64,000 nt of DNA from an uncultured Wenzhouxiangella sp. (GTDB lineage: Bacteria; Pseudomonadota; Gammaproteobacteria; Xanthomonadales; Wenzhouxiangellaceae): positions 55,231-119,230 of the forward strand of contig CAJXNL010000004.1 of the NCBI GenBank assembly GCA_913057195.1, read 5' to 3'. Shown here in pieces: positions 273 to 33,101 of this stretch. The notes beneath the pieces were generated by a model, which was given only the letters and a program-made list of their open reading frames with translations, did no database searches and was not told where the DNA came from. Position numbers and translations under genes: made by a program. Positions within the stretch are counted from its first letter, which is position 1, and the number at the start of each line of letters is the position of its first letter.

Positions 273-366
<94 letters not shown>

Positions 367-398
367 TTCTAATAATTTTCTATATAATGGGCCCCCAC

Positions 399-490
<92 letters not shown>

Positions 491-636
491 TCCCCCGAAG
501 CCTTTGATCATCCCAAGAAAAAGCCACCATCTTGATGGTTCAACTGTGATGTTGAATCAAGCAAGCGGTGGCAGTGGTGGGTCCTACTTTTATGAGGTGA
601 GATGGGTGGCCAGTTTGACGCCACCAACACCCCATC

Positions 637-668
637 GCTTGGGCTGTCTTAACGAGCACAGCCCAAGC
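637..668 (-). terminator. Perfect 11-bp inverted repeat downstream of the fasciclin gene
   Basis: GCTTGGGCTGT-N10-ACAGCCCAAGC lies just 3' of the minus-strand CDS; no clear U-tract. Confidence 0.5.
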
Positions 669-695
669 TTGGATGGGCACTGATCAGCAAACCCT

Positions 696-1196
696 TTATT
701 CGGGCAAGATGACTGCGTCAATGACGTGGATTACGCCGTTCGATGCCTCAATGTCGGCTGTGACAACGTTCGCGCCTTTGATTGTGACACCGTCGGTGGC
801 ATCAATGGCCACGCTGCTGCCTTGGACTGTGTTGGGCGTGAGCGTTTGCCCAGCAATATCAGCCGACATGACTTTGCCCGGGAGGACATGGTAGGTGAGG
901 ATGCCTTGCAAGGTGGCCTTGTTCTCAGGCTTCAAAAGATCATCCAAAGTCCCTTCTGGCAATGCTGCAAATGCTGCATCAGTGGGGGCAAACACTGTAA
1001 AAGGGCCGTCGCCTTTTAGCGTTTCAACCAGATCAGCTGCATCCAACGCAGCAGCCAGGGTATTGAAAGACCCCGCGGCGACAGCGGTGTCCACAATGTC
1101 TTTTTGATCATGATTTCCATGGTTGTCGGCACTGGCCAGTGAGGCGAGAAGGGTCAGTGTGAATGTTAAAAAAATGTTTCTCAATTGTGATGACAT
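696..1196 (-). CDS. Secreted fasciclin (FAS1) domain protein
   Basis: Signal peptide [26 protein letters not shown]1 motifs [35 protein letters not shown]. Start trimmed from ORF-track 1328. Confidence 0.88.
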
Positions 1197-1494
1197 GGTG
1201 TCTCCCTTAAGTGTTAGACCGTATTGCGATGTTGGTGTATGTGGTGCGGAATAAACATAACCGCACCGAGTGAAGGTTGCGTGACTTGCGCATGCCACCT
1301 CGATGGCTGAATCCGAATCAATGCGCATTTCGATCTCGCGACCAATCTAGACGACCAACAGCTGCGAGAAGGGCTGGGTCTGATTGTGACCAATATGACT
1401 GGACAATTCACAAATGGAGGGAAGAGAGAAGTGGTTTTTCGGTGATGATCGAGGCAATGGTGTGGATGGACCTTTTGTGTTGTAGTATGGCTTC

Positions 1495-2595
1495 ATGTTG
1501 AGACTAACCAAGCTCGTTTCGGTGACCTTAGTGGCCCTGATCAGTGCCTGTTCGGGAGAGGTGCAACGCGAAAACAATGAGGGATCCCAGAGCCTAAATG
1601 CAGATGTTTTTCAGATAGGCATCACAGGCGGGCTGAGTCGCATTCCTTGGGAGGTCGCCAAACGGTCACAATTGATCAGTGCGATAGAACAAAAACACGC
1701 CTTGAGGCTGGAGTTCATCAGTTTTGCCAACGAGGCCGATGCCGTGTTGGCCTATTCTGCCGGCCAAATCGATGGGGTAACGAGCACACTCAACACGATT
1801 GTGGGGACGCTGCAGGGCAGTGCGGGGGACAGTCACCTTATTTTACTGACTGACTTTTCGCAGTCGTCTCATGCTTTGCTCAGTAAAAGCATCGATGACA
1901 TCCAGAGCTTGTCAGATCAACCCGTCCATGTCCAGTTGAACACGGCGAGTCATTATTTTCTTTTTCGTGCACTGGAAAACGCCGGGTTGGAATTAAGCGA
2001 TGTTGAGTTGATTGATGCGTCGACCTTTGATCTCCAAGAGGGAGCCATTGATGGCAGTATCGAGACCATGGCAGTGGGCGCACCACTGCTTGGGCAGCTC
2101 CGGCCATTAACCGAGTTTCGGCCAATCACCACAAGCGAGATGCTGTTTGGTGAAATGATCGGCGGTTTGGCCGTGAGTGCGGATGTTTTAGAAAGCAACT
2201 CCGCTTTGGGCGCTGCTTTGGTCGAGGTGTGGTTTGCAGCGGTTGAGGAAATTATGGCAGACGATGGGACGTTTACGCGGGCAGGGCTTTCTGAAGTTGC
2301 TCAGCTGGCCGGACTGTCACCCAGATTGGTGGGAGAGTTGCTCTCTCCGAGAGACATCATTGCTGATCCGAAGCGTGCTTTAAGTTTGTTGAATGGGGAT
2401 AATCTCGATGCAACAATCTCAGGTGGCCAGCGCTTTAGAACCGCCGCCGAGGCTGCCTCAGAAGAGTTAGATCTTATGGCGTGCGCGTTCGAGTGTGACG
2501 GCGATGTTCTTGACAACGGAGTTGGAACACAGCTGCGGCTTGATGCAAAGTATCTTGAAGCATTTGTGCAGGGTACCAGCGGTGATGAAGGCTGA
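1495..2595 (+). CDS. NrtA/SsuA/NMT1-like periplasmic substrate-binding lipoprotein
   Basis: Lipobox-like LISAC; SBP-type IGITGG...FANEADAVLAYSAGQIDGV pattern. No ABC permease or ATPase nearby. Confidence 0.7.
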   Translation: MLRLTKLVSVTLVALISACSGEVQRENNEGSQSLNADVFQIGITGGLSRIPWEVAKRSQLISAIEQKHALRLEFISFANEADAVLAYSAGQIDGVTSTLNTIVGTLQGSAGDSHLILLTDFSQSSHALLSKSIDDIQSLSDQPVHVQLNTASHYFLFRALENAGLELSDVELIDASTFDLQEGAIDGSIETMAVGAPLLGQLRPLTEFRPITTSEMLFGEMIGGLAVSADVLESNSALGAALVEVWFAAVEEIMADDGTFTRAGLSEVAQLAGLSPRLVGELLSPRDIIADPKRALSLLNGDNLDATISGGQRFRTAAEAASEELDLMACAFECDGDVLDNGVGTQLRLDAKYLEAFVQGTSGDEG

Positions 2596-3148
2596 GTTAT
2601 CCAATGCTTTATTCGATGCTCTGCCCAAAACAGGGTGGCTCTATCCCGATCTGACGTTATCAGCTGCCCAGATGTATGGTCAAGGCGTCAGGGCAGACGA
2701 TCTCCACGCTTTGGTCGAGCGGGGGCTGGCTGAATCTAAGGTGCTGTGTCGCTGTGCACGATGCCCGGCATGCCAAACACATCAGTGCAGCATTTGGGAG
2801 CGGTGCATGCGATGTGAGTCCGCCAATCTGACCGCCATACCTTTGTTTCACCATATTCTTTGCGCGGCAATTTTCGAAGCGCCCAATGGGCTTGCTGCGG
2901 TCGAACGATGTGAGAAATGTGATCAGCCATTGGCAGATGAACCAGCGATGGTCGAGCCGGTGGGTGACACTTATCGATGCCGTGACTGTGGAGGACACTC
3001 ACCCGAGCCAAAACTTGCATTCTATTGTTTTGGCTGTCAGAAGGTTCACGCTTTTGATGAAGTGACGTTCCACCGCTTATGGAAGTTCAGGCGCGCCACA
3101 ACCCACTCAGCGCTGACCGATTCTGTGAGGCAAAAAAACGATGTTTGA
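2585..3148 (+). CDS. Cys-rich zinc-ribbon-like protein of unknown function
   Basis: ATG overlaps the upstream stop. Motifs CRCARCPACQTHQC, CMRC, CEKC, CRDC, CFGC. Confidence 0.65.
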   Translation: MKAELSNALFDALPKTGWLYPDLTLSAAQMYGQGVRADDLHALVERGLAESKVLCRCARCPACQTHQCSIWERCMRCESANLTAIPLFHHILCAAIFEAPNGLAAVERCEKCDQPLADEPAMVEPVGDTYRCRDCGGHSPEPKLAFYCFGCQKVHAFDEVTFHRLWKFRRATTHSALTDSVRQKNDV

Positions 3149-4415
3149 TGTGCCCTATCTACTGGGTGTCTTCTTCGGAGCTGCCCCGTTGGCAACCCTG
3201 GCCACCGTGTTTATCTTCGATGTGCCTCGTGATTTGCTGGCGCTGGCGGGGGTTGCTTTGGCCCGCGGCCGTAAGTTAGGCAAGAGGCAAGGTGAGACGT
3301 TGACCGCCGGGCACGACGGTGACGTGACGGTCATTATTGCCTCATTGAATGATCCAGAAGGGGTCTTGTTAAGTTTGGAAAGTTTGAGGGCGCAGGACCT
3401 TCCGCCGGCACGCGTGATCGTTTTTAGTGATGGTTCAACCGACTGCTCTGTGGCCGTGTTGAGCACCCTGCAACGACGTGGTGAGATTGATTTGGTCGTT
3501 GTTAACGATTTCAGGCTTGGTCGGGCAGCGGCAGGCAATGTCGCGCTTCGCTACGTTGAGACCGAGTTTGTTTTATTTATTGATTCTGATACCCGCTTAG
3601 AACCTGGAGCGATTGCCGCACTCCGGCGTCGCTTACTGACGCGCCCCGAGGCCGCCGTTTGTTCTGGAAACATCAGTGTCAGTAATCATAAAGACAGCAT
3701 TTGGGCAGGTTTGCAGCAGTTGGAATACATGATCTCGATCGATTTTGGTCGAGAATTCTCAGATACACTGGGCGCAGTGGCCTGTTGCTCGGGGGCATTA
3801 AGCATGTATCGCAGCACAATGCTCCAAGACGCTGGCGGTTTATCCTCAGGATCAGGAGAGGACTTGGCCACGACATTGAGACTGCGTCGCATGGGTTATG
3901 AGGTCCACTTTGAGGCAGACGCCTGGGCAAGAACAGCCGTGCCCTCGACGCTCAGTGGCCTGATCGATCAGCGACTGAGGTGGGATCGAGACGCTTTTAG
4001 GATACAGGTCGTGCAGTTTCACCAGCTTCGTAAGCAAGGCGCTAATGAGCCCTTGGCAAACTCGATTCAACGCTATGATTTTGTTCTATTTACCTTTTTG
4101 CCCACGCTGATGATGCCTCTGTTCTTGCCCATACTCACACAGGTGCCTGCTGATCTGCTGCCGAGTTTTCTGGCTGGGGGCTATGTATTTTTGATGTTGC
4201 TTGCAGCATTGATTCTTGCGCCCGTATTTATTGGATATCGGGGGCAAGTGTCGGTATTTCAATTGCTGTTGCTGCCGATTTTTCCGCTTTATCAAGGCAT
4301 CTTTATGAAGGGCGTTCGGCTGTATGCTTATGTCAGCGAGGCGATTTTTCATGCCTCGGCTCGAGATCGATATGTCCCCGCTCGAGTGCGCCAACGACTC
4401 AACGGTAAGTGCTGA
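3141..4415 (+). CDS. Family 2 processive-type membrane glycosyltransferase
   Basis: SDGSTD, DSDTR, GEDLATT and QRLRW motifs plus C-terminal TM segments (BcsA/PgaC/Alg8-like architecture). Confidence 0.85.
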   Translation: MFDVPYLLGVFFGAAPLATLATVFIFDVPRDLLALAGVALARGRKLGKRQGETLTAGHDGDVTVIIASLNDPEGVLLSLESLRAQDLPPARVIVFSDGSTDCSVAVLSTLQRRGEIDLVVVNDFRLGRAAAGNVALRYVETEFVLFIDSDTRLEPGAIAALRRRLLTRPEAAVCSGNISVSNHKDSIWAGLQQLEYMISIDFGREFSDTLGAVACCSGALSMYRSTMLQDAGGLSSGSGEDLATTLRLRRMGYEVHFEADAWARTAVPSTLSGLIDQRLRWDRDAFRIQVVQFHQLRKQGANEPLANSIQRYDFVLFTFLPTLMMPLFLPILTQVPADLLPSFLAGGYVFLMLLAALILAPVFIGYRGQVSVFQLLLLPIFPLYQGIFMKGVRLYAYVSEAIFHASARDRYVPARVRQRLNGKC

Positions 4416-5398
4416 TGCATATTCTGCGCGGTGGTGGTCAAGCGGGCCAGCGCGATGAGCGATATAAAAGCTCAGGGCGGGTGGTGAGGCTGATATATTC
4501 TATGGCGGTATTGGCCGTCATTGCATATGCACTGTATTTTTTCGGTCGCCCCTATCTTATCCTCGAAGGAGCGGGGATCGTATCAGCACCTAAAAAAGAT
4601 ATCGCGGCTGATCATGTGGCTGAAGTTGAGCTTGTCCATATCGAGCCAGGTGATCGGGTATACCCGGGAGCCTTGCTTTTTACAATCAACCGCTCAGGTT
4701 TTGCTGAGCGTTTGGATGAAATTCGCACGACACTTGCAGATCGTGAGCAAGATATTGACAGAGTTCTTCAAGAGCTCAAGGTCGCCGAGCGAATGATGCC
4801 CGTGCTGAACCGCCGAGTGAGTGAATTGGGCGGTGTATTAAAGCGAGCAGACGATCAGCCTGAAATTATGGATCTTTCAACACGAAGCACCCTGCATCGT
4901 GAATATGCTGAGGCTTCACGACAGCTTGAACAGAATCGGGCGCAGCGAGAAAACTTACCTGGTCTGCTTGATCAGTTGCAGCAAAACAAACGTGCGCTTC
5001 AACAACGCCAGTCGGAGATATTGCTGACCTGGAGAAACCGTCAGGTGGTGGCTCAGGAGGCCGGTATTATCGGGCCTGAGGTTGTTTCTGAAGGTGAGAC
5101 AGTGTTGACCGGTGAGGTTATGGCACAACTGCTCGACTCAAGTCGCCTTTATGTAATTTGGGAATTGCCTCAGCGAATGCTTCGATTGCCGCGTCTTGGC
5201 GAGCGGGTGATTGTGAAAGGTGTTCGTGTGCAAGTGACAGGGCGAGTGGATCGATTTGCCGCGATGGCTAGTCCCTCGCCCGGGGATCAACAGCGTCGTC
5301 GACGTCTTGTGTATGTCGCCATCAATCGTGAAGATGCGAAGTTATTGCCCCTAGAAAGCAGCGTGACAGTTCAGATGAATTACTTCTGGAACGATTGA
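4415..5398 (+). CDS. HlyD/Alg44-like periplasmic adaptor (membrane fusion) protein
   Basis: N-terminal TM, barrel-sandwich-like VELVHIEPGDRVYPGALLFTI, coiled-coil region, second half VVAQEAGIIGPEVVSEGETV. Start overlaps glycosyltransferase stop (TGATG). Confidence 0.75.
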   Translation: MHILRGGGQAGQRDERYKSSGRVVRLIYSMAVLAVIAYALYFFGRPYLILEGAGIVSAPKKDIAADHVAEVELVHIEPGDRVYPGALLFTINRSGFAERLDEIRTTLADREQDIDRVLQELKVAERMMPVLNRRVSELGGVLKRADDQPEIMDLSTRSTLHREYAEASRQLEQNRAQRENLPGLLDQLQQNKRALQQRQSEILLTWRNRQVVAQEAGIIGPEVVSEGETVLTGEVMAQLLDSSRLYVIWELPQRMLRLPRLGERVIVKGVRVQVTGRVDRFAAMASPSPGDQQRRRRLVYVAINREDAKLLPLESSVTVQMNYFWND

Positions 5399-5665
5399 TC
5401 TGTCAGCTGAGCCGTAGGAGTCATGATCAGCCATAGGCTGCGATTTTAACGCGTTGATGACTGGCGCTGTCGGTGTTTCTGTGGCAGGCGATCCGTGCGA
5501 TTCAGATTCAGATTTAGATTCGGTTTCAGACGCTTTTGAGGTGCTGCGTCGGACTTCAGACCAGGATGAGAGGCCCTTGGGCTTGATTGCGGGCACTTCA
5601 ACATCTGCCGCACGAATTAAGAGAGTGATAAACTACCGGGATCATCGATTGTAAGGAGACAACCC

Positions 5666-6919
5666 ATGGGATTCCAACACGTCAAAATGCCTGAATCAGG
5701 CGATAAAGTGCGCATCGACAACGGCCGTTTGGTGGTCTCCGATCAGCCCATTTTGGGGTTTATTGAGGGTGATGGCATTGGTGTGGACATCACGCCCGCC
5801 TGCATGCGGGTTTGGAACGCCGCCATTGAAAAGGCCTATGGTGGCCAACGCAAGGTTCACTGGGCAGAGCTTTTCTTAGGGGAGAAAGCCGCCGGCATCT
5901 ACGACGGGGACTACTTTCCCCAGGAAACCCTGGATGCCATTCAAGATTTGACCGTGGCCATTAAGGGGCCGTTGACGACGCCGGTCGGTGAGGGCTTTCG
6001 CTCGCTGAATGTCTCGTTGAGGCAAACCCTTGATTTATATGCCTGTGTTCGGCCAGTGAAGTACTACAACGGCGTTCCCTCTCCGTTGAAAAAACCTGAA
6101 GATGTGGATGCGGTGATTTTCCGTGAGAACACTGAGGATGTCTATGCCGGACTCGAGTATGCATCGGGTACCCCTGAGAATAAAAAGCTGGCGACATTCC
6201 TGCGCGAGCAAATGGGCGCGGACTTCTTCGAAGATGCGGGTCTCGGGATCAAGCCGGTCTCGGCGGCGGGCTCAAAGCGCTTAGTCCGAAAAGCCATCCA
6301 GTACGCCATCGACAATAACCGCTCAAGCGTGACCTTGGTACACAAAGGCAACATCATGAAGTTCACCGAAGGCGCGTTTAGAAAGTGGGGGTACGAAGTC
6401 GCGGCCGAAGAGTTTGGGGATGTCACCATCACCGAAGACGAGCTGTGGGAAAAACACGACGGGAAAGCCCCCGAGGGCAAGATTGTCATCAAAGACCGAA
6501 TCGCCGACATCATGTTCCAGCTCATGCTGCTGCGGCCCGCGGAGTTCGATGTTTTGGCGACCATGAACCTCAATGGCGACTATTTGTCAGACGCCTTGGC
6601 TGCCGAAGTCGGCGGCATGGGGATTGCAGCGGGAGCAAACATGGCCGATCACGTTGCAGTGTTCGAAGCCACCCACGGCACTGCGCCAAAATACGCCGGA
6701 AAAGATCAAGTTAACCCGAGCTCACTGATGTTTTCGGGCTGCATGATGTTTGATTACATCGGGTGGCCTGAAGTGACTCAATTAATCGAAGCGGCGTTTG
6801 AAAAAGTGGTCTCTGACAAAGTGGTGACTTACGATTTCGCAAGGCTTCTGGAAGGCTCCACGAAGGTCTCCACCAGCGGATTTGCAGATGCCCTAATTGA
6901 CGCGATCAACCAAAGCTAA
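5666..6919 (+). CDS. icd: NADP-dependent isocitrate dehydrogenase
   Basis: [52 protein letters not shown]. Confidence 0.95.
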
Positions 6920-13373: not shown

Positions 13374-14699
13374 ATGACGCCGCGAGCCTGGGTGGGTCGA
13401 GGGGGCATCAACACAAAGTTGGTGCGCGTTTTTGTGCTCCAGATCGTTGCCATCAGTGTGGCCACGGTTCTTGGGGTGTTTTCAGCCGGATTGATTGCTG
13501 AGCGGGTGCTGGTCAAAGAGGCGCTCAACGGTGAGGCTGAACACTTTTGGGCGCATTATGAGAAAGACCCGGCCTTTCCGTTGCCCAACACCAATAATCT
13601 GACTGGGTATTTGAGCGTGGCAGGCGATGAGCGCAGGCTGCCTGAGTGGCTTCAAGATCGTGACGATGGTTACTTTCGCGTTGATGCTGAGGCGGGTTTT
13701 GAGCCATTGGTGTTGATTTCCTCCCACCAAAATGCTCGACTTTTTTTGGTGTTTGATGAGGTGCAGGTTTCACAATTGGCGCTGTACTTTGGTCTGGCAC
13801 CGTTAACCGCAGTGCTTCTTTTGATCTATCTGTTGACATGGGTGGGGTATGTCGCCACACGCCGCGCGGTCTCCACCATGGTGAAGCTGGCTGATCGGGT
13901 CCGCAATTACGATGTTAAAGCGGGCCATTTTGAGCCCATTTCGAGTCAAGAGTTTGGTGGGGTCGACGATAGCGAGGCCATCACGCTGGTCAATGCATTC
14001 AATCAGTTTGTTCACCGAATGGAGTCGTCAATTCATCGTGAGAGAAACTTCACGCGCAACGCCAGCCATGAGCTGAGAACGCCGTTGGCCGTGATCAAGG
14101 CAAACCTGGATCTGCTTGAGCGCTTTGATCAGCCTGATAAGCGCCAAAAAGTGATCGGTCGAATGCGCCGCACGGTTGATGGTATGGAAGACCTGGTTGA
14201 GACATTGCTCTTGCTTGCCCGCGATGCAGAATCCTCGTTGACCAGTGAGCGAGTGGATATCAACGCGCTTTTGACCGAGCTGCTTGATGAAGTGGCTCAG
14301 GCCTTAGGAAGCACAGATGTGACGCATCGTTTGGTTGCGCGAGGGCAGCTTGAAGTCGAAGCGCCCAAGCGGGTGCTGGTCATCCTTTTTACCAATTTGG
14401 TCAGAAACGCTATGATGTACACCGACCAGGGTGAGGTTGAGGTGGTCATTTGCCGTCGTGGCGTCATGATCAACGACACTGGCCGCGGGATGGATGAGGA
14501 GGATCTTGATCGCATGTTTGAACCGTTCGTCAGGGGCCATGACCGAAGCAACGAGGGTCATGGGCTGGGTTTGGCGATTGTGCGACGCTTGTGTGATCGT
14601 TTTGGCTGGGATCTTCGCGCGGCCAGTGAGCTCGGCGTGGGGACCCAGATTCATATTGAATTCCCCAGAGCGCGCTTTTCGCCCGCGTCGGCGGCATGA
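13374..14699 (+). CDS. Sensor histidine kinase
   Basis: Two TM segments, H-box NASHELRTPLAVIKANLDLLE, N-box, G-boxes INDTGRGM and GHGLGLAIVRR. Confidence 0.93.
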   Translation: MTPRAWVGRGGINTKLVRVFVLQIVAISVATVLGVFSAGLIAERVLVKEALNGEAEHFWAHYEKDPAFPLPNTNNLTGYLSVAGDERRLPEWLQDRDDGYFRVDAEAGFEPLVLISSHQNARLFLVFDEVQVSQLALYFGLAPLTAVLLLIYLLTWVGYVATRRAVSTMVKLADRVRNYDVKAGHFEPISSQEFGGVDDSEAITLVNAFNQFVHRMESSIHRERNFTRNASHELRTPLAVIKANLDLLERFDQPDKRQKVIGRMRRTVDGMEDLVETLLLLARDAESSLTSERVDINALLTELLDEVAQALGSTDVTHRLVARGQLEVEAPKRVLVILFTNLVRNAMMYTDQGEVEVVICRRGVMINDTGRGMDEEDLDRMFEPFVRGHDRSNEGHGLGLAIVRRLCDRFGWDLRAASELGVGTQIHIEFPRARFSPASAA

Positions 14700-15685
14700 G
14701 CGGGCCCCAGATGACACCCACCCGAGCACGTGCCGGCGCGAACATTGCGCTGATCAAATACTGGGGCAAGCGCGGGGCAGGCGATTTAAACCTTCCAGCG
14801 ACCGGCTCAATATCGATCACCCTCAATGAACTGGAGACGGTCACGACGGTGACGCCGGACACGGCGCTGTCTGGCGATGTCTTCTCGCTCAACGGGGCCC
14901 TCATAGAAGATGCACGCGTATTGAGATTGGTGTCTCGAATGCGCGCGGCGTATCCAGCAATGGCATCGTACTGCCGAATCGAGTCGGTGAATTCGTTCCC
15001 AACGGCGGCTGGATTGGCGTCATCGGCGTCTGGTTTTGCGGCACTTGTCCTGGCGCTGGACGCGGCTTTTGAATTGCAAGCACCCACCGACGAGCTGGCT
15101 CGATGGGCACGCATTGGCTCCGGTTCGGCAGCACGGTCATTATTGGGTGGCTTTTGTCGAATGCATCGTGGTCAAGCGCAAGATGGGCATGATGCGATCC
15201 CTGAGCAGCTCTTGGACCATACTGCCTGGCCATTGGAGGTGGTGGTTGCCATCACTCAAACCCAGGCCAAGGGCACCTCGTCGCGTAAGGGGATGACGCA
15301 CACAATGGCCACCTCGCCATACTATTCGGCTTGGGTCAGACACAATGAGCAGGTGCTCGACGAAGCCGAGAAGGCCATTGTGTCGAGAGATTTTGACAGG
15401 CTGTCAGAGCTCAGTGAGGCCAGCGCGCTGCAAATGCACGCCTCCGCACTGGCAGCGGAGCCGGCGGTGCTCTACTGGAACGGTTCGAGTGTTGAGTGTC
15501 TGCACGCCATCCGTGAGCTGCGGCAAAGTGGCCACGGTGTCTTTTTCACCATGGATGCAGGTCCTCAGGTAAAGGCCGTTTGCCTGCCCGGTCACGGCGA
15601 ATCTGTTGCGACCCGTTTGCAGCAAGTGCCGGGTGTGCAGTCGGTGGTGAGCTCAGCGCTGGGCCCGGGAGGCTGCCGGATATGA
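14696..15685 (+). CDS. mvaD: Diphosphomevalonate decarboxylase
   Basis: NIALIKYWGKR, SFPTAAGLASSASGFAAL, GSGSAARSLLGGF; ATGA overlap with kinase gene. Confidence 0.93.
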   Translation: MSGPQMTPTRARAGANIALIKYWGKRGAGDLNLPATGSISITLNELETVTTVTPDTALSGDVFSLNGALIEDARVLRLVSRMRAAYPAMASYCRIESVNSFPTAAGLASSASGFAALVLALDAAFELQAPTDELARWARIGSGSAARSLLGGFCRMHRGQAQDGHDAIPEQLLDHTAWPLEVVVAITQTQAKGTSSRKGMTHTMATSPYYSAWVRHNEQVLDEAEKAIVSRDFDRLSELSEASALQMHASALAAEPAVLYWNGSSVECLHAIRELRQSGHGVFFTMDAGPQVKAVCLPGHGESVATRLQQVPGVQSVVSSALGPGGCRI

Positions 15686-16728: not shown

Positions 16729-16769
16729 GCGCACCAAAACACAAATAACGATCAGTGGAGCCAACAGCG

Positions 16770-19088
16770 ATGGCCGGGGACACGCCAAACAAACAGCAAA
16801 AAGACGCTCGGGTGGATCAATCACGCATTCCTAAGTTCTATAAGATGAGCGTGGCTGAGCGGGTTCAAACTGTCCATAATCATGGTTGGCTGAACCACAG
16901 CGACTTCCAAGCACTGCAGTCTGGTCAGCACACCTTGTCTGTGAACCTCGCCGACAAGATGATTGAAAACGTCATCGGCGTCATGGGCTTGCCGGTGGGT
17001 TTGGGCTTAAATTTCTTGATCAATGACAAAGACCATGTGGTGCCATTGGTTGTTGAGGAGCCCTCTATTGTGGCCGCGCTCAGCGCGGCAGCCAAGCTTG
17101 CCAGGGAAGCCGGCGGTTTTCAGGTGGACAGTCAGCCCCCGATGCTCATTGGCCAGGTCCAAATTGTCGATGTGCCCAACCCCGCGCAAGCCAAGGCGGC
17201 CCTGCTGCAGCGCAAAGGCGAGATCCTAAATTTGGCCAACAGTCTGCATCCAAAGATGATTGCTCGCGGTGGGGGTGCCAAGGATCTGGAGGTGTTTGTT
17301 CACCCCTCCCAGGGTCCCGGTGGGGACATGGTGGTGCTGCATTTGTTGGTTGATACCTGTGACGCCATGGGTGCGAATCTGGTCAACACCATGTGCGAGG
17401 GCGTGGCATCGCTTGTCGAGACCATCTCCAAAGGACGGGTGTTTCTTAGGATCTTATCGAACTTGGCAGACCGCGCGTTGGTTCGGGCGAGAGTGCGGAT
17501 CCCCACGGCGTTACTCAGCGGCAAGGGGTTCGATGGTGAGCAGGTCAGAGACGGCATCATCGTGGCCAATGATTTTGCGCGTGTCGACCCGTATCGCGCC
17601 GCCACGCACAACAAAGGCATCATGAATGGCATTGATGCAGTGGCATTGGCTACGGGCAATGACTGGCGTGCCATCGAGGCCGGTGCACACGCCTATGCCG
17701 CTCGGGGAGGCCATTACACCGCGCTGACTGAATGGTCCAAAGCCGACAATGGCGATTTGCTCGGTGAGCTCGAGGTCCCAATCAAAGTGGGCACGGTAGG
17801 GGGTCCTTTGCAGACCAATCCCACGGTGGCGCTCAATCTGCGATTGATGAAAACATCCTCAGCGCGTGAGCTGGCGGAAGTGATGGGTGCGGTGGGTTTG
17901 GCTCAAACGTTTTCAGCGCTGAGAGCGTTGGTCACCGAGGGCATTCAGCAGGGCCACATGACGCTGCACGCCCGGTCGGTGGCGACCGCGGCAGGCACGC
18001 CGCCAGAGCTCTTTGACACCGTCGTTGACCGGCTTGTGGCCTCAGGTGAGATTAAGATTTGGAAGGCACAAGAGATCATGAAGGCTGTTGAGGCGCAAAC
18101 GCATCCTCAAGTGGCCGCAGGTCACAGCGAAACGGCTGAGACGCTGGAAGGTGAGCCGGTGGGTGCGGGACATGGCAAGATCATTTTGCTCGGTGAGCAC
18201 TCGGTCGTCTATGGGCGTCGAGCCATCGCGGCACCAATCCCGCTGGCCATCCAGGCGCGGATCGACGATCAGCGTGAGCACAGCGAGTTGATCATTCCTC
18301 GGTGGGGCATTGAACAGCGGTTGGACTTTGGCGCCAAGCATCCCCCATCGTTCACCCGCTCCATCGCGCGCGTGTTGGAAGCGTTGGGCTTGATGGATCG
18401 CTCAATTCGCATCGAGGTGTTTCCCAATGTTCCAAGGGCGATGGGCCTGGGTGGGTCCGCGGCTTTGGCTGTGGCCGTGATTCGGGCTTTGGATGCCCAT
18501 TTTCAGCTTGGCCTCAATGATGATCGCGTCAATCAATTGGCTTTTGAGTGCGAAAAGATTGCGCATGGGACGCCGTCAGGGCTGGACAACACGTTGGCGA
18601 CGTTTGGAGAGTTCATGCTCTATCGAGCCGGAAATGCGCCAGCGCGCGACATTATCGAGCCGGCCCGTCCTTTGCCCATGGTCATCGGGATGACCGGGAT
18701 TGAGGGTTTGACTGCAAAAACCGTCGCGCGTGTTCGCGAGGCTTGGCAGCGCAATCCGGTGTTGTATGAGCGGCTTTTTGATGAAATTGATGGTTTGGTG
18801 GGGCTGTCTTTGGATGCTTTGGAGGCTGGAGACCATTCCGCGCTGGGTGAATTGATGAATGTCAATCAAGGCTTGCTCAATGCGATGCAAGTCTCAAGCC
18901 CTGAGATCGAGGAGCTGATTCAAATTGCGCGCAACAATGGCGCAATTGGCGCAAAACTGACCGGCGGCGGCGGTGGTGGTTCCATCATCGCATTGGCCCC
19001 CGACAGCAGCCGAGATGTCGCGCGCGCGATGCGCGAGGCGGGCTATCACGCGCTTGAAGTGGAGGTCGGAGGGGTCTCAGGCCCATGA
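16770..19088 (+). CDS. Class II HMG-CoA reductase fused to mevalonate kinase
   Basis: N-terminal HMGR: ENVIGVMGLPVGLGLNF, DAMGANLVNTMCEG, THNKGIMNGIDAVALATGNDWRAIEAGAHAYAAR, LHARSVA. C-terminal MVK: GKIILLGEHSVVYG, PRAMGLGGSAALAVAV, HGTPSGLDNTLATFG, GAKLTGGGGGG. One uninterrupted frame. Confidence 0.93.
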   Translation: MAGDTPNKQQKDARVDQSRIPKFYKMSVAERVQTVHNHGWLNHSDFQALQSGQHTLSVNLADKMIENVIGVMGLPVGLGLNFLINDKDHVVPLVVEEPSIVAALSAAAKLAREAGGFQVDSQPPMLIGQVQIVDVPNPAQAKAALLQRKGEILNLANSLHPKMIARGGGAKDLEVFVHPSQGPGGDMVVLHLLVDTCDAMGANLVNTMCEGVASLVETISKGRVFLRILSNLADRALVRARVRIPTALLSGKGFDGEQVRDGIIVANDFARVDPYRAATHNKGIMNGIDAVALATGNDWRAIEAGAHAYAARGGHYTALTEWSKADNGDLLGELEVPIKVGTVGGPLQTNPTVALNLRLMKTSSARELAEVMGAVGLAQTFSALRALVTEGIQQGHMTLHARSVATAAGTPPELFDTVVDRLVASGEIKIWKAQEIMKAVEAQTHPQVAAGHSETAETLEGEPVGAGHGKIILLGEHSVVYGRRAIAAPIPLAIQARIDDQREHSELIIPRWGIEQRLDFGAKHPPSFTRSIARVLEALGLMDRSIRIEVFPNVPRAMGLGGSAALAVAVIRALDAHFQLGLNDDRVNQLAFECEKIAHGTPSGLDNTLATFGEFMLYRAGNAPARDIIEPARPLPMVIGMTGIEGLTAKTVARVREAWQRNPVLYERLFDEIDGLVGLSLDALEAGDHSALGELMNVNQGLLNAMQVSSPEIEELIQIARNNGAIGAKLTGGGGGGSIIALAPDSSRDVARAMREAGYHALEVEVGGVSGP

Positions 19089-24724: not shown

Positions 24725-24787
24725 TGGCTGAGCTGTGACAGGTTCTCGCATGGATTGCAACGGTTGGAGTGGAGGGTGCACGAAACC

Positions 24788-26737
24788 ATGAACAGTCTTT
24801 TCGTCTCAAAACTCAGGTCTTGGTTGGCCATCAGTTGGCTGGCCATGGCTTGTTTGCTGATTCCAACGGCGCATGTTTGGGGTCAAGATGAACAAGATGC
24901 CCATGTGCTCAACTTTACCGACGCCGACATCCGAACCGTGATTAATGCTGTGGCAGAGATGACGGGACGGACGATGATTATCGACCCGCAGGTGGCAGGT
25001 CAGGTCAGCGTGGTCTCAAATGAGGCACTGGATGATGCGGCGGTCTACGACGTATTTTTGGCGGTGTTGGCTGTGCATGGATTTAGCGCCATCGAAGATG
25101 GGGTGACGACTCGCATTATTCCCGACAGCGACGCCCAAGCCTCCGGCCGGGTGCCTGTGGATCAGATGCGGGCGTCGGGTGATGAGCCCGTGATGAGGAT
25201 CATTGCCACTGACCATGTGGACGCCGGCGAGGTGGTGAGCCTCCTTCGCACTTTGGTCCCAGCCTCCGCGTATTTGGCGCACCATGCCCCCTCAAACGTG
25301 GTGATCGTGTCTGATCGTGCAGCCAGTGTTCGCCGAATCGAGACCATCATCCAACGTTTGGATGCCCAAAGCAAAGAAGAGCTGGAGGCCATTGCGCTTT
25401 CTCATGCCGATGCCACCGAGGTGGTGAGTCTGATCGAGCGACTGTACGCCAACGCCAGCCAAGCGCAGGCCGTTGCCGACGCGCGGACGAATACGGTCAT
25501 CTTGTCGGGGGACCCCAGCCGCAGACTTCGGTTACGGACGTTGGTGGCGCACTTGGACACGCCGCTGTCGGTGGACGGTCAAACGCAGGTCATTTACCTT
25601 CGTTACGCAACAGCCGCTGATCTGGTGCCTGTGTTGCAAGGCATGTTGGCAGAGCCCAGCGAGCAGGGTTCAAGCCGAACCAAGATCCAAGCCGATGAAG
25701 CCACCAACGCGTTGGTGGTGACGGCCAATCCGTCGGTGTTCCGCACGATCGAGTCTGTCGTTCGCCAGCTCGACATTCGCCGTGCGCAGGTCCAAGTGGA
25801 GGCCATCATCGCGGAGGTGGCGATGGACACCAGTCAAGAGCTGGGAATCCAGTGGCAAGCATTTGCCACAGGCGATGATGGGTTGTTCGGCGGCACCAAT
25901 TTCCAATCGGGGGGGAACAACATCCTAACCCTCAGCAGCGCGGCAGGTCAGGGTGGGGAGGCGGCGAGTTTGACGTTGCCCGGCCAAGGGCTGAACTTGG
26001 GGTATGTTCGCGGTCGGTCTGACCTGTTGGGATTGGACATTTTAGAGATTGGTGCGTTGGCCCGTGCACTGAGTCAAGATGCCAACACCAATGTGCTTTC
26101 CACACCCTCGGTGGTCACGATGGACAACCACCCTGCGAGCATCAGTGTGGGTCAAGAGGTGCCGTTTGTTTCAGGCAGCTTTTCTGCCCAAGGCATCGCA
26201 TCGTCCGATGGGCAAGTGAACCCTTTCCAAACCATTGAGCGAAAAGAGATTGGAATCAAACTCAACGTCACGCCACACATTAATGAGGGTGATCAGGTGA
26301 TGCTGGCCATTGAGCAAGAGGTGTCTACATTGGCGCCCTCATCTGGCGCGGTTGATTTGATCACCAATAAGCGAACAATTGCCACTCGAGTCATGGTGCC
26401 CGACGGGGCCATCTTGGTGCTGGGAGGTTTAACCACAGAAGATGTTCAAGAGCAGTTGGAGTCTGTTCCAGGCCTGGGGCAGATCCCGGTGCTGGGCGAG
26501 CTGTTCAAATATCGCCGAAACAACAACGTCAAACGCAATCTGATGGTCTTCATTCGGCCCGTGATTTTGCGCGATGATCAGGTGCTCGATGAGGTCACTG
26601 GCCGCAAGTACTCCATCATTCGCGACGCGCAACAGCGAAACATCGATCAGGCACAATCGCTCAGTCCCGCCAAGGACGCGCCGCTGCTGCCTGAGCTGAG
26701 TGATTTTTTACAAAATCCACCGCCGAATGAACGCTGA
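24788..26737 (+). CDS. gspD: Type II secretion secretin GspD
   Basis: N0-N3 domain repeats, VQVEAIIAEV, secretin core VPFVSGSF...GIKLNVTPHINEGDQVMLAIEQEVS, VPDGAILVLGGL. Confidence 0.95.
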   Translation: MNSLFVSKLRSWLAISWLAMACLLIPTAHVWGQDEQDAHVLNFTDADIRTVINAVAEMTGRTMIIDPQVAGQVSVVSNEALDDAAVYDVFLAVLAVHGFSAIEDGVTTRIIPDSDAQASGRVPVDQMRASGDEPVMRIIATDHVDAGEVVSLLRTLVPASAYLAHHAPSNVVIVSDRAASVRRIETIIQRLDAQSKEELEAIALSHADATEVVSLIERLYANASQAQAVADARTNTVILSGDPSRRLRLRTLVAHLDTPLSVDGQTQVIYLRYATAADLVPVLQGMLAEPSEQGSSRTKIQADEATNALVVTANPSVFRTIESVVRQLDIRRAQVQVEAIIAEVAMDTSQELGIQWQAFATGDDGLFGGTNFQSGGNNILTLSSAAGQGGEAASLTLPGQGLNLGYVRGRSDLLGLDILEIGALARALSQDANTNVLSTPSVVTMDNHPASISVGQEVPFVSGSFSAQGIASSDGQVNPFQTIERKEIGIKLNVTPHINEGDQVMLAIEQEVSTLAPSSGAVDLITNKRTIATRVMVPDGAILVLGGLTTEDVQEQLESVPGLGQIPVLGELFKYRRNNNVKRNLMVFIRPVILRDDQVLDEVTGRKYSIIRDAQQRNIDQAQSLSPAKDAPLLPELSDFLQNPPPNER

Positions 26738-28193
26738 TTTTCGCCCCCATTACCGGTTTGCCAAACACCGCGGTGTTGCCGTGGTCGATCAGGGTGAAGG
26801 TGATCTGACCCTCGCTGTCCGTGCGCCTGCAGATGCTGCGGCGGTGCAGGATGTTCTTCGCCACTTGGGGCGGGAGGTGGCCATTGAGACCATGCCACCG
26901 GCAGCATTTGATGGTCTACTGGCTCGACTCTATGAAAACCCGAACGCCAGCGCCCAGCAGGTGATCGATGATCTTGACGATGACTTTGATTTGTCTCAAC
27001 TGGCTGATGACTTGCCACAGTCATCCGATCTTTTAGACAGTGAGGATGATGCCCCCATTATTCGCTTAATCAATGGGGTGTTGACTCAAGCGCTGAAAGC
27101 TCAAGCGTCAGATATTCACTTTGAGCCTTTTGAGGATCGTCTGGCCATTCGGTTTAGGGTCGATGGGGTGCTGCATGAGGTTATGGCGCCCAGTCGGGCG
27201 CTGGCCTCGTTGATCGTTTCTCGGTTGAAAGTCATGGCCGAGTTGGATATTGCTGAAAAGCGGGTGCCGCAAGATGGACGCATTGGCTTGACCATTGGTG
27301 GCCGGGCAGTGGATGTTCGCGTGTCAACGCTGCCCTCGAGCCATGGCGAGCGCGTTGTGCTCCGCTTGCTCGATAAGCAGGCGGGTCGGCTGGACCTCAA
27401 TGAGTTGGGCATGTCAGACCAGGCGCGCGGGACCATGGATGAGCTGTTGTCGAGGCCGCATGGCATCATCTTAGTCACAGGGCCGACGGGCTCAGGCAAG
27501 TCGACAAGTCTGTACGCCGCCATCTCGCAACTCAATGATCGCAGCCGAAACATCATGACGGTCGAAGACCCCATTGAATATGATCTCGATGGTGTGGGTC
27601 AAACCCAAGTCAATCCGAAAGTTGATTTGACTTTCGCCCGAGGTTTACGAGCGATTCTCAGACAGGATCCGGACGTGGTCATGGTTGGAGAGATTCGTGA
27701 CGTCGAGACGGCTCAAATGGCGGTGCAGGCCTCATTGACCGGTCATTTGGTTTTGTCCACGCTGCACACCAACACGGCGCTGGGGTCGGTGACCAGGCTC
27801 ATGGATATGGGAATAGAGCCCTTTTTGTTGGCCTCAAGCCTGATTGGGGTTGTGGCACAGCGCTTGGTGCGGGTGGTCGACCGCGAAGCCTGTGAGCAGG
27901 TGTGGACAGCACCCGATGTGCTCGGGTTGGAGGGCGCACCCGTTCAGGCATGGCGACCGCGCACCGATCTTTCTCAAGGGCAGACAGGCTATCGAGGACG
28001 CACCGGAATCTATGAGGTGGTCAAGGTCACGCCTGGCTTGAGAGACGCCATTTATGCCGGCTCAAATGAGCACGCCCTCAGTGCGATCGCCCGAGAGCAT
28101 GCCCCGTCAATTGTTGCCGACGGTTGGGAGAAAGTCAGTCAAGGGATCACTTCGATAGAAGAGGTCTTGCGCGTGACTCGCCAAGCGCAATAA
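26727..28193 (+). CDS. gspE: Type II secretion ATPase GspE
   Basis: GPTGSGKSTSLYAA, VEDPIEYDLDGVGQTQVN, RQDPDVVMVGEIRD; overlaps gspD end. Confidence 0.95.
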   Translation: MNADFRPHYRFAKHRGVAVVDQGEGDLTLAVRAPADAAAVQDVLRHLGREVAIETMPPAAFDGLLARLYENPNASAQQVIDDLDDDFDLSQLADDLPQSSDLLDSEDDAPIIRLINGVLTQALKAQASDIHFEPFEDRLAIRFRVDGVLHEVMAPSRALASLIVSRLKVMAELDIAEKRVPQDGRIGLTIGGRAVDVRVSTLPSSHGERVVLRLLDKQAGRLDLNELGMSDQARGTMDELLSRPHGIILVTGPTGSGKSTSLYAAISQLNDRSRNIMTVEDPIEYDLDGVGQTQVNPKVDLTFARGLRAILRQDPDVVMVGEIRDVETAQMAVQASLTGHLVLSTLHTNTALGSVTRLMDMGIEPFLLASSLIGVVAQRLVRVVDREACEQVWTAPDVLGLEGAPVQAWRPRTDLSQGQTGYRGRTGIYEVVKVTPGLRDAIYAGSNEHALSAIAREHAPSIVADGWEKVSQGITSIEEVLRVTRQAQ

Positions 28194-28197
28194 AGTC

Positions 28198-29400
28198 ATG
28201 GGTGCTTTCGAGTATCAAGCCATTGATGCGGCGCAAAAGATCAAGCGCGGGGTGGTTGAGGCCGATACCGCACGCCAAGCCAGAGGACTGATTCGCGAAC
28301 AAGGCATGGTGCCGTTGGAGGTGCAAGCCGTTGAGCGCACGCAAAGCACGAGACGGCATTGGGCCAGTGCCAGCGAGCGTGCCATCATCCTTCGCCAGTT
28401 GGCGACTTTACTTCAGGCCGGCATGACGCTTGAGGAGGTGTTGGGGGTCTTGACGGAGCAGGCCGACCGCAACAGCACGCGGCGTGTGCTCGCGGCGATT
28501 CGCTCTCAGGTCTTGGAAGGCCACAGTCTGTCACAAGCGATGAGTCAGTTCCCATCAATGTTTCCCAAGCTCTATAGCGCCTCGGTCGCTGCCGGCGAGC
28601 GGACGGGTCAGCTGGGCCCTGTCTTGGAGCGGCTGGCTGAATATGCGGCCAAGCGTCAGTCCATGCGGCGAGGGATTGGGTTGGCTTTGGTGTACCCGGC
28701 GTTTTTATTCGTGGTGGCCATGGGGGTTGTGGGCGCGCTGATTGGGGTCGTGGTGCCTCGAGTGATCACTGTCTTTGAAGGCGCGGGCCAAACCTTGCCT
28801 TGGATCACCCGCTCAATGCTTGCGCTGTCGGAGATCGTCACACGATATGGCGCTGTGGGCGCTGTTGGGTTGGTGCTGATGGGGGTTGTGGGGGTTTTGG
28901 CGTATCGTCAGCGCGCGGTGCGGTGGCGAGTGGATGTGTTGGCTTTGCGACTGCCTCTGATTGGGCGAGTGATCTCGGCCCATCAGACATCGCTGCTGAT
29001 GCGAACGTTATCGATCATGGTCTCGAGTGCGGTGCCATTGGTGGCGTCTTTAAAAGTCAGTGCCAGCGTCTTGGGCAACCAAGTGGCCAAAGCTGACATT
29101 GAGACGGTGGGTCGTCGGGTGAGTGAAGGGGCATCATTGTCCAAGGCGCTTGCGCAATCGCCTTGGGTATCGAGCATCGCCCAGCGCCTGGTCCATGCCG
29201 GTGAGAAAAGCGGTGAGTTGGGCACGATGCTCGAGCAAGCTGCCGACATTGAAGAGCGGGGCCTGGATGCGGCCCAGTCGGTGGTGCTGTCGGTGATTCA
29301 GCCAATAATGATTTTGTTGGTGGGTTTGGTGGTCATGTACATTGTGTTGGCCATCATGCTGCCCATCCTGAACATGAGCCAACTGTTGGGCGGCGTATGA
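28198..29400 (+). CDS. gspF: Type II secretion inner-membrane protein GspF
   Basis: GspF/PilC repeat architecture; LRQLATLLQAGMTLEEVLGVL; C-terminal VVMYIVLAIMLPILNMSQL. Confidence 0.95.
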   Translation: MGAFEYQAIDAAQKIKRGVVEADTARQARGLIREQGMVPLEVQAVERTQSTRRHWASASERAIILRQLATLLQAGMTLEEVLGVLTEQADRNSTRRVLAAIRSQVLEGHSLSQAMSQFPSMFPKLYSASVAAGERTGQLGPVLERLAEYAAKRQSMRRGIGLALVYPAFLFVVAMGVVGALIGVVVPRVITVFEGAGQTLPWITRSMLALSEIVTRYGAVGAVGLVLMGVVGVLAYRQRAVRWRVDVLALRLPLIGRVISAHQTSLLMRTLSIMVSSAVPLVASLKVSASVLGNQVAKADIETVGRRVSEGASLSKALAQSPWVSSIAQRLVHAGEKSGELGTMLEQAADIEERGLDAAQSVVLSVIQPIMILLVGLVVMYIVLAIMLPILNMSQLLGGV

Positions 29401-30065
29401 TTCAGTTTGAGCGCGTCTCCAAGCAATATCCAGGCACGGGCCTGGCGCTGAGTGATGTCAGCTTCAGCCTCGATCGGGGTGAAATGGTTTTCTTGACAGG
29501 GCACTCAGGCGCCGGGAAATCAACCCTGCTTAAACTGATTGCTTTGATCGAGCGTCCCACGCGGGGACAATTGCTTTTTGACGGCCGCAATGTGGCTCAA
29601 TTGTCTAAGCGCCACGTGCCCCACCTTCGTCGCCAAATTGGTGTGATCTTTCAAGACCACCGTCTGTTAGAAGACCAGCGGGTGTTTGATAATGTTGCGC
29701 TGCCTTTGGTGATCGCAGGCGTTGAGTATCGGGAGATCAAGCGCAGAGTCAGAGCAGCACTGGACAAAGTCGATCTGTTGGACAAAGAGCGCGCTTATCC
29801 ACCGATGCTTTCAGGTGGCCAGCAGCAGCGGGTTGGCATCGCCCGTGCCATCATTGCAAAGCCTGCGGTGCTTTTGGCTGACGAGCCGACGGGCAACCTG
29901 GATCCTCATTTGTCCAAAGAACTGATGCGCTTTTTTGTGAACCTCAACGAGTTGGGGATGACGGTGTTGGTGGCCACGCACGATGTGGATTTAATTTCAG
30001 GCTTTGATAAGCCCCGTTGGACACTCGCTCAAGGTGGGTTGGTGGATGGGCAAGGCGCGCTTTAA
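29397..30065 (+). CDS. ftsE: Cell-division ABC ATPase FtsE
   Basis: [51 protein letters not shown]. Confidence 0.95.
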
Positions 30066-31023
30066 GTCGCGTCCGCCGATGCGGCCGCGCGTTTCTATGC
30101 GCGATGCCGTGCGTGCTTGGGCTCGGCGGCACGGCTACAGTTTTTTCTCCTCGCTGGGTGAGTTTGTTCGCCGGCCGGTGGCCTCTGCCATGACCATCGT
30201 GGTGCTTGCATTGGCGCTCAGCTTGCCGCTTTTGCTTCATTTGGCCGTCAGTCAGCTTGATGCCGTGGCTGGTGACATGGATGCCCAAGTCACGCTGTCA
30301 GTTTTTGCTGAGCGTGAGCTGTCCGACACTGAGGTGCGGCGTCTAAGCGCCCGGTTAGCGGCTCGGCCCGATGTGGTCACCGCTGACCCGATCAGTCCCG
30401 AGGCCGGGCTGAGGGAGGCGCTAAACAACCTCGGCTTGGCCACGGCGCTCGAGGACATTGCTCGTTTTTATGAGGACAATCCGCTGCCTTGGGTGGTCGT
30501 ATTGGGGGTTGACCCTCAAGCCTCTACCGATGCCTTGGTGGCTCAACTGCAAGACACTTCGGGCATTGCGCAAGTGATTGTTGATCAGGCCTGGCTGCAG
30601 CGGTTCAGGTCATTGCTGGAGGTGGGTCAGCGATTGGTGGTGATCTTGTCAACGCTGTTGTTGCTTGCCGTTGTGTTCGTGGTTGCGCACGCCATTCGCA
30701 TGGACGTTCACCAGCGCAGGCATCAGATCGAGGTGATGGCATTGATCGGGGCGACGCCGGGCTTTATTCGCAGGCCATTTTTATACTCGGGCTTTTGGCT
30801 GGGCACCTTTTCTAGCATGTTGGCCATTGCGCTGGTTTATGTCGTGATTGGCGCCTTGCATGGCCCGATAACGGCGCTGGCTGACAGTTATGGCAGTGCT
30901 TTTGAATTGGAGGGCCCGAGCGCGGCAACGATGATCGCGACAATGGCAATGATGGGGTTGATCGGCGTGTTTGGGTCCATGATCGCGGTCCATCAGCACC
31001 TGACAAAGCGCGGTTTGAATTAA
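30046..31023 (+). CDS. ftsX: Cell-division permease FtsX
   Basis: FtsX topology; VTLSVFAERELSDTEV, HQRRHQIEVMALIGATPGFIRRPFLYSG. Confidence 0.92.
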   Translation: MGKARFKSRPPMRPRVSMRDAVRAWARRHGYSFFSSLGEFVRRPVASAMTIVVLALALSLPLLLHLAVSQLDAVAGDMDAQVTLSVFAERELSDTEVRRLSARLAARPDVVTADPISPEAGLREALNNLGLATALEDIARFYEDNPLPWVVVLGVDPQASTDALVAQLQDTSGIAQVIVDQAWLQRFRSLLEVGQRLVVILSTLLLLAVVFVVAHAIRMDVHQRRHQIEVMALIGATPGFIRRPFLYSGFWLGTFSSMLAIALVYVVIGALHGPITALADSYGSAFELEGPSAATMIATMAMMGLIGVFGSMIAVHQHLTKRGLN

Positions 31024-32198
31024 GCCAAGCCTGCGACCGACGGCTCGTTGAGCGTGGCGGTGATGCGCTGATACTCCGCCATGGACGATCGCCCCTCAAG
31101 CACGTGCGCCAATGCCGCTTGATTAAGGGTCTGCCCGCCTTGTTTTTGAATTTGTGCGGCCAAGCCCACGTCCGAGTGGCCCTGGGCAATCTGGGCTTGC
31201 AGTGTTTGAGTGATCGGCAAGGTCTCAAACACCCCCGTGCGGCCCAAATAGCCGCGTCGACAGGCCGGGCACCCGACGGCCCGATACACTTTGGCGCCGG
31301 GGCTTTTGGCCATCAGGCGCTGGGCGGAGGTTGATCGATCATGTGTTTTACATGCGTGCAAGGTTCGCATGAGGGTTTGCGCGATGATGAGTCGGCATGC
31401 CGATGCAACATCGGCGCGGTCAACGCCCAAGTGCAGCAAGCGTGTCAAGGTGGCCAGCGCGGTGTTGGTATGCAGGGTCGACAAAATAAGATGGCCGGTC
31501 TGTGCCGCTTGGACGGCAATTTTGGCGGTGGTTCGGTCACGGATCTCGCCAATCATTAAAACATCAGGATCTTGCCTGAGAAAAGCGCGCAGCGCATGGG
31601 CAAACGTCAGTCCGATGCCCTCATGGTGGGCGACTTGGTTGACCCCTGGAAGGGTCATCTCAATCGGGTCTTCGATGGTTGAAATATTGCGATGCGTTTG
31701 GTTGAGCTGCTGGAGGGCAGCATACAAAGTCACTGTTTTCCCCGAGCCTGTGGGTCCGGTGACCAAAATCAGCCCCCAAGGACACGCCAGGGCTGCCTCG
31801 AGCTGGGCGTGCTGCTCCGAGCGCATGCCCAACTGGTCTGTCTTGGGCAGATGGATCAGCGCATCCACATGACGAAGCACGATTTTTTCGCCAAACAAAG
31901 TGGGGCAGGAGGACACTCGAAACTCATGCGCTGCGTTGGCTTGGGTGAGTTTTAATCGGCCATCTTGCGGCAGACGCTTCTCTCCAATATCCAACTGTGC
32001 CATCACCTTGATGCGCGCGGTGACCGCGTCGGTCAGGTGTTGAGGCAGCTGCGCATGCTCCTCCAATAAGCCGTCGATTCTGAGCCGAATGCGGCACGTG
32101 GCGCCGAGCGGTTCAAAGTGGATGTCAGAAGCCCGTTTCGCCACGGCATCGGCCAGAACCTGATCGACCCACGCGACCGCTGAATCGGGCGCGGGCAT
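31020..32198 (-). CDS. pilB: Short GspE/PilB-type pilus assembly ATPase
   Basis: GPTGSGKTVTLYAA, STIEDPIEMTLPGVNQ, RQDPDVLMIGEIRD. Start placed at MPAPDSAVAWVDQVLADAVAKRASDIHFEP, just after the pilD stop; ORF-track N-terminus overlaps pilD and is unlikely. Confidence 0.85.
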   Translation of the reverse strand: MPAPDSAVAWVDQVLADAVAKRASDIHFEPLGATCRIRLRIDGLLEEHAQLPQHLTDAVTARIKVMAQLDIGEKRLPQDGRLKLTQANAAHEFRVSSCPTLFGEKIVLRHVDALIHLPKTDQLGMRSEQHAQLEAALACPWGLILVTGPTGSGKTVTLYAALQQLNQTHRNISTIEDPIEMTLPGVNQVAHHEGIGLTFAHALRAFLRQDPDVLMIGEIRDRTTAKIAVQAAQTGHLILSTLHTNTALATLTRLLHLGVDRADVASACRLIIAQTLMRTLHACKTHDRSTSAQRLMAKSPGAKVYRAVGCPACRRGYLGRTGVFETLPITQTLQAQIAQGHSDVGLAAQIQKQGGQTLNQAALAHVLEGRSSMAEYQRITATLNEPSVAGLA

Positions 32199-32200
32199 GT

Positions 32201-33049
32201 CTAAAACATCAGCCAATCGCCCAGCAGGGCATGCCAGATCAGCGCCAACCAACCGGCCAACGCCAAGTGTGGGCCAAATGCAATGGGCGTGTCGCGCCCG
32301 CGCTGCGCGAGCACCATCCCCAATAGTCCTGCCACTGAGCCCATCAGGCTGGCCAAAAACAGCACGATCGGGAGCAGCGACCAACCCAGCCAAGCGCCCA
32401 ACGCGGCCAACAGCTTCAGGTCGCCGCCGCCCATGCCCTCCTTGCCAGTCAAGAGTCTGAACCCGTGAAGCACCAGCCACAAGATCGAAAACCCAGCCAC
32501 CGCGCCCCAGATGGCGTCGCTGGGGGTTGCGAACCAGCTCCAAGTGGCATTGATCAATAGGCCGGCCCACAACAGGCCAAGGGTCAATACATCGGGCAAC
32601 AGATGGTGCTCAAGGTCAATCGCGGAGGCGGCAATCAAGGTCCACGCCATGCCGGCAGCGGCCAGCGTTGGCCAGCTGAGCCCCCATTGCCAGACAACAA
32701 GCACGGTGGCCGCGGCACACAACACCTCAACGATCGGATAGCGCCAGCCGATGGCGTTTTCGCAATGGCGACAGCGGCCTCGCAGCACCAACCAAGAGAT
32801 GACCGGGATGTTGTCATGCCATGCGATGCCATGATGGCAATGGACACACCGTGAGCGAGGCCAAATCAGCCCGGGTGGGGCGGGGGTGTCGGTGTGATCG
32901 GACTCAGACACCATGACATGCCAAGCGTGCATCAGCCTGGCGGGCAGCCGCACGATCACGACATTGATAAAGCTGCCGACAATCAGGCCCATCACGCCAG
33001 CGATAACAAGCTGTGCCCAGGTTGGCCAAGCCAGCAATGTTTCAATCAA
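32201..33049 (-). CDS. pilD: Prepilin peptidase / N-methyltransferase
   Basis: GSFINVVIVRLP, CVHCHHGIAWHDNIPVISWLVLRGRCRHCENAIGWRYPIVE, GMGGGDLKLLAALGAWLGW. Confidence 0.96.
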   Translation of the reverse strand: MIETLLAWPTWAQLVIAGVMGLIVGSFINVVIVRLPARLMHAWHVMVSESDHTDTPAPPGLIWPRSRCVHCHHGIAWHDNIPVISWLVLRGRCRHCENAIGWRYPIVEVLCAAATVLVVWQWGLSWPTLAAAGMAWTLIAASAIDLEHHLLPDVLTLGLLWAGLLINATWSWFATPSDAIWGAVAGFSILWLVLHGFRLLTGKEGMGGGDLKLLAALGAWLGWSLLPIVLFLASLMGSVAGLLGMVLAQRGRDTPIAFGPHLALAGWLALIWHALLGDWLMF

Positions 33050-33101
33050 TTCAGGCTCCTTGAGTCCTCAGGTTCAGTGACCTCAACAAGGATCAGTGAT
33101 G

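Follow-up and report, generated by a model that had tools for sequence, protein, structure and literature searches.

A predicted Mxd-like polysaccharide synthase and export core with a bare TackOD1 subunit and an orphan substrate-binding lipoprotein in an uncultured Wenzhouxiangella

Organization of the operon and its genomic site

The window analysed here is a 64,000-nucleotide stretch of DNA from an uncultured Wenzhouxiangella sp. Inspection of its open reading frames (ORFs) agreed with an earlier note on this DNA, which had described four overlapping co-directional genes: four ORFs lie on the same strand at 1495-5398, and each overlaps the next. The first gene (1495..2595, + strand) encodes a substrate-binding lipoprotein (SBP) of 366 aa with the lipobox ISA/C, and the second (2585..3148, + strand) encodes a TackOD1 zinc-domain protein of 187 aa that resembles a stripped MxdA. 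They are followed by a gene for an MxdB-like, processive-type membrane glycosyltransferase (GT2) of 424 aa (3141..4415, + strand; PF13641, 7.4e-24) and by a gene for an MxdC-like periplasmic adaptor of the HlyD type (4409..5398, + strand; PF13437, 2.9e-05). An ATG at 2585 gives gene 2 an 11-bp overlap with the end of the SBP gene, and there is no need to assume the longer ORF with its GTG start at 2495; for the HlyD gene, the ATG at 4415 (TGATG overlap) is a more likely start than the GTG at 4409. The gene set is not a chance assembly: every one of the proteins matches a family in its own right, and three of these families recur together in other genomes. According to the ORFs and Pfam matches in the window, no permease or ATPase gene adjoins the SBP gene and no homologue of PgaA, PgaB or PgaD is encoded in the operon. 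The operon also has no dedicated outer-membrane gene and no ORF that would correspond to mxdD, as icd comes after the HlyD gene.

The operon occupies a variable site that is bordered on the left by tRNA-Ser(gga) and tRNA-Ser(tga) (273..488, + strand) and on the right by icd, the gene for isocitrate dehydrogenase (5666..6919, + strand; PF00180). Congeners retain the order tRNA-Ser, icd and DUF455 and carry other or little cargo between tRNA-Ser and icd. In the window, the segment from tRNA-Ser(tga) to icd (488-5666) contains the four operon genes and a divergent gene for a fasciclin-domain protein (696..1328, - strand; PF02469, 2.9e-38), which relatives lack between tRNA-Ser and icd and whose product is a possible adhesion partner. 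The SBP was not found in 100 relatives and gene 2 was not found in 60 relatives; among 399 genomes of the order, no other genome had a PF18551 match above the cut-off and one had a match below it. Because the cargo of congeners differs and the SBP, gene 2 and PF18551 were not found in the sampled relatives, the comparison suggests that the four-gene block was gained horizontally at this site. A search next to icd for an att-like direct repeat matching the end of the tRNA was negative.

Gene 2 and the Shewanella mxd operon

A Pfam search identified the product of gene 2, previously labelled Cys-rich and unclassified, as a stand-alone TackOD1 zinc domain (PF18551, 1.1e-17), a domain whose function has been described as obscure (PMC5847659). 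Alignment to relatives shows no loss among the five CXXC pairs or at the His/Cys position, and the protein aligns solely to the zinc core of TackOD1 relatives. Its AF2 model has a mean pLDDT of 78, with much of the core above 90, and a fold search with this model against solved structures returned no significant match.

In Shewanella, the mxdABCD operon encodes the glycosyltransferase MxdB, the efflux-like MxdC and MxdA, which is reported to affect or bind c-di-GMP, and mutants in mxd form neither three-dimensional biofilm nor aggregates (PMC3691769, PMC7666153, PMC11395469); the chemical identity of the mxd product is not given in these three papers. The operon of S. oneidensis MR-1 was located by searching 130 Shewanella genomes with the mxd promoter primers from PMC3691769. 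One exact match was obtained and two further primers match directly upstream of an ORF of 462 aa (MxdA), and the identification as the MR-1 mxd operon rests on these primer matches. MR-1 MxdA comprises TackOD1 (4.7e-71) and a weak, degenerate GGDEF domain, and downstream of it lie a GT2 (MxdB), an HlyD adaptor (MxdC) and an ORF of 122 aa.

The window operon thus has TackOD1, GT2 and HlyD genes in the same order as mxdABCD, likewise overlapping and likewise without a dedicated gene for an outer-membrane component. In contrast to MxdA, gene 2 encodes neither the extra N-terminal region nor the degenerate GGDEF-like domain with its RxxD motif, the R and D of which do not vary among the first nine relatives, and its identity to MxdA proteins is only 15-21%. 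Moreover, mxd includes mxdD and no SBP gene, whereas the window operon includes an SBP gene and no mxdD. The system had been put forward as undescribed, and a match to a characterised exopolysaccharide locus had been named beforehand as the finding that would speak against this. Such a match was obtained for genes 2-4, which correspond to the characterised Shewanella mxdABC (PMC3691769, PMC7666153).

The glycosyltransferase and the HlyD-like adaptor

The glycosyltransferase contains the motifs SDGSTD, DSDT, GED and QRLRW, as had been claimed, and its catalytic residues (D, D, ED and QxxRW) are invariant across 38 aligned glycosyltransferases. It scored 208 bits with an MxdB-type profile, compared with 167 bits for PgaC and 110 bits for NodC, and the HlyD-like protein scored 74.6 bits with an MxdC profile; the MxdB and MxdC profiles were built without window sequences, and these matches are hence non-circular. 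The best solved matches of the AF2 model of the glycosyltransferase (mean pLDDT 80) are hyaluronan (HAS), cellulose (BcsA) and chitin synthases.

The protein is small, has few predicted membrane helices and ends soon after the last of them, and it is distantly related to the chitooligosaccharide synthase NodC. These features would also suit a GT2-HlyD pair whose product, made or exported, is a short oligosaccharide or a glycolipid and not a polymer, a reading that we regard as quite improbable because the QRLRW motif and the fold match processive synthases and three-dimensional biofilm depends on the mxd operon (PMC3691769).

The closest glycosyltransferase found is that of Sinorhizobium medicae (39% identity). 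In the glycosyltransferase tree, the window protein sits on a long branch and joins S. medicae near the alphaproteobacterial and group-A loci, outside the clade of MxdB proper to which the mxd enzyme belongs, with PgaC and NodC interspersed among the lineages. Because of this placement, the long branches and the position of PgaC between lineages, we refer to the window system as Mxd-like and not as a member of Mxd.

No PilZ domain was matched in the operon proteins in a Pfam search, which agrees with the earlier remark that the N-terminus of the adaptor has no obvious PilZ domain. The Alg44-type likeness proposed for the adaptor is weaker than its likeness to MxdC, and an alginate reading was rejected because the adaptor lacks a PilZ match. 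A cellulose reading was also rejected. Among NCBIfam equivalog models, the one nearest to the glycosyltransferase is PgaC/IcaA, known from E. coli pgaABCD (PNAG); a PNAG reading was rejected because the TIGR03937 score is 109.5 against a cut-off of 422 and PgaA, PgaB and PgaD are missing from the operon.

TackOD1 loci in other genomes

A genome scan yielded 552 relatives of TackOD1-GGDEF proteins, and 79 loci were kept. TackOD1-GGDEF loci occur in Vibrio, Photobacterium, Aliivibrio, Shewanella, Pseudoalteromonas, Pseudomonas, Aeromonas and other genera, and plasmid records contribute further ones from Plesiomonas, Rhodobacterales and Phyllobacteriaceae. Altogether, 109 of 111 TackOD1 loci have a co-directional GT2 gene no more than 1 kb away, and GT2 is accompanied by HlyD (within 5.5 kb) in 108 of them, in a sample that is uneven and in which related genomes are counted separately; two of the three exceptional loci sit near contig ends. 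Because TackOD1 was the main criterion for choosing the loci (L220 and L232-L236 entered via the glycosyltransferase), the linkage to GT2 is largely not a product of construction. An OEP-type gene was detected at 35 of the 111 loci and none was detected at the other 76.

The module attached to TackOD1 is variable. It is GGDEF-like in gammaproteobacteria and REC in Roseibium and Palleronia, where the genes adjoin GT2 and HlyD, and no extra module was recognised in Alisedimentitalea, Phyllobacterium, Aminobacter and Methylocystis. At two loci (L240 and L241), REC-TackOD1 lies beside GT2, HlyD, Hpt and sensor genes, possibly a phosphorelay version. Because the linkage to GT2 and HlyD is near-constant and the signal modules are exchangeable (GGDEF, REC or none), the data suggest that a widespread class of polysaccharide synthases has TackOD1 as its control subunit. 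Together with the content and order of the MR-1 operon, the linkage across loci identifies genes 2-4, by sequence comparison, as an Mxd-like polysaccharide synthase/export core.

Three further arrangements can be compared with that of the window. A plasmid record of S. medicae that carries no annotation contains GT2 and HlyD genes followed by an ORF for an 81-aa TackOD1 core (L220:8320-8562). As in the window, TackOD1 is cut to a stand-alone core; it differs in that TackOD1 comes after HlyD and no SBP was recognised adjoining. Group-A loci (for example L042, L040 and L234) encode an OEP-like protein of 690 aa, HlyD, TackOD1 and GT2 and thus have the three core families in common with the window; in the tree, their glycosyltransferases and the window enzyme group on one side, away from MxdB proper. 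However, their HlyD gene precedes that for TackOD1, which is full length, and a large OEP-like first gene stands where the window has the SBP gene. The conserved protein of about 690 aa (L042:4324-6414, L038:4622-6700 and others) has no Pfam match and is OEP-like according to a local profile, and its conserved C-terminal domain, judged by eye, resembles a putative TIM-barrel glycosidase. The rhizobial bgsBA system for mixed-linkage beta-glucan also pairs a GT2 synthase with an HlyD-like partner, but it is bicistronic, has no TackOD1 gene and places the HlyD gene first, the reverse of the window order. The bgsBA synthase bears a C-terminal c-di-GMP-binding domain (PMC9495663), unlike the window enzyme, which has little sequence beyond its last membrane helix.

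Control of the synthase and the substrate-binding lipoprotein

No GGDEF match was found in the genome of the window, which is 98.9% complete; the same search was positive in 8 of 14 control genomes. Because only the zinc core of TackOD1 remains and the search detected no GGDEF proteins in the genome, the window synthase is, judging from these sequences, probably not controlled by c-di-GMP. A bare TackOD1 in a genome without a GGDEF match would be a natural minimal version of the system. What is known here is the TackOD1-GT2-HlyD core as in mxd; what is new is the loss of the c-di-GMP-sensing parts and the presence of an orphan SBP in the operon.

The SBP belongs to the nitrate/sulfonate/urea-type family of ABC substrate-binding proteins (urea/NMT1-type; TIGR03427, 8.7e-32 across the whole length), in line with its earlier description as a nitrate/sulfonate-type protein without ABC permease or ATPase. 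Many of its relatives adjoin permease and ATPase genes, and those in the class that have readable neighbours are mostly ordinary transporter subunits. An ABC-importer reading was rejected because no permease or ATPase gene adjoins the SBP gene. Because the SBP retains 25 of 72 columns that are conserved in 16 family relatives, a change of ligand, if it still binds one, is probable. The co-occurrence of the four genes in other genomes, on which the earlier note had staked its proposal, held for the families of genes 2-4 (108 of 111 loci) and not for the SBP, which is encoded at none of the 111 TackOD1 loci. Because of this, and because the four-gene set was found nowhere else, the SBP is a local oddity of the window operon.

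That the SBP has a sensing or scaffold role is a reasonable guess. The absence of the gene from every other TackOD1 locus checked, its restriction to a single genome, the missing transporter partners and the strong divergence would all be expected of a hitchhiker, that is, a decayed ABC transporter subunit co-transcribed by chance and unrelated to the polysaccharide. We consider this somewhat unlikely because the 366-aa ORF is intact and has a signal peptide, and the 11-bp overlap with gene 2 suggests translational coupling. The SBP could instead be a lipoprotein that binds and guides the glycan, an outer-membrane or periplasmic polymer chaperone that replaces the missing outer-membrane component rather than a sensor. 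It occupies the first position, as the OEP-like protein does in group-A loci, most residues conserved in transporter relatives are lost and the residue after the lipobox Cys is Ser, which favours outer-membrane sorting. However, the family consists of small-molecule binding proteins, and many TackOD1 loci have no extra outer-membrane gene (the 76 without a detected OEP), which leaves a guiding function unlikely.

Proposed mechanism

The explanation that we prefer, and hold with fairly good confidence as a whole, is an accessory, Mxd-like exopolysaccharide synthase-exporter that is no longer gated by c-di-GMP and has the SBP as a possible periplasmic input. In this part the earlier proposal of glycan synthesis and secretion is supported, both by the matches of the glycosyltransferase model to hyaluronan, cellulose and chitin synthases and by the conserved TackOD1-GT2-HlyD unit. 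GT2 would polymerise an activated sugar and thread the polymer across the inner membrane, and the HlyD adaptor would carry it over the periplasm, probably to the single TolC-type OEP protein that is encoded, unlinked, on another contig of the genome. The TackOD1 zinc protein would act as a cytoplasmic control subunit, serving as the output part in contact with the synthase. In MxdA relatives this subunit bears a signal module, either a degenerate GGDEF with RxxD or REC, whereas the window protein consists of the zinc core alone. The co-translated SBP would most likely provide a periplasmic ligand input on the adaptor or the synthase; because the SBP arrangement is known from one genome, this step is the weakest and a hitchhiker is possible.

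A more speculative extension, which we hold to be rather doubtful, is that nutrient sensing by the SBP gates the synthase via the adaptor or the membrane, replacing second-messenger control, and that the bare TackOD1 core is the part of the switch that all versions need. If true, the window and S. medicae proteins would represent natural deletions and thereby define the minimal function of TackOD1.

Elsewhere in the window, a 777-aa ORF (16755-19088) encodes an HMG-CoA reductase fused to a GHMP kinase, probably mevalonate kinase, and a diphosphomevalonate decarboxylase-like gene lies at 14696-15685; together they indicate a mevalonate pathway in this genome. The region 24755-34427 contains GspD/E/F-type genes followed by a second E/F pair on the opposite strand.
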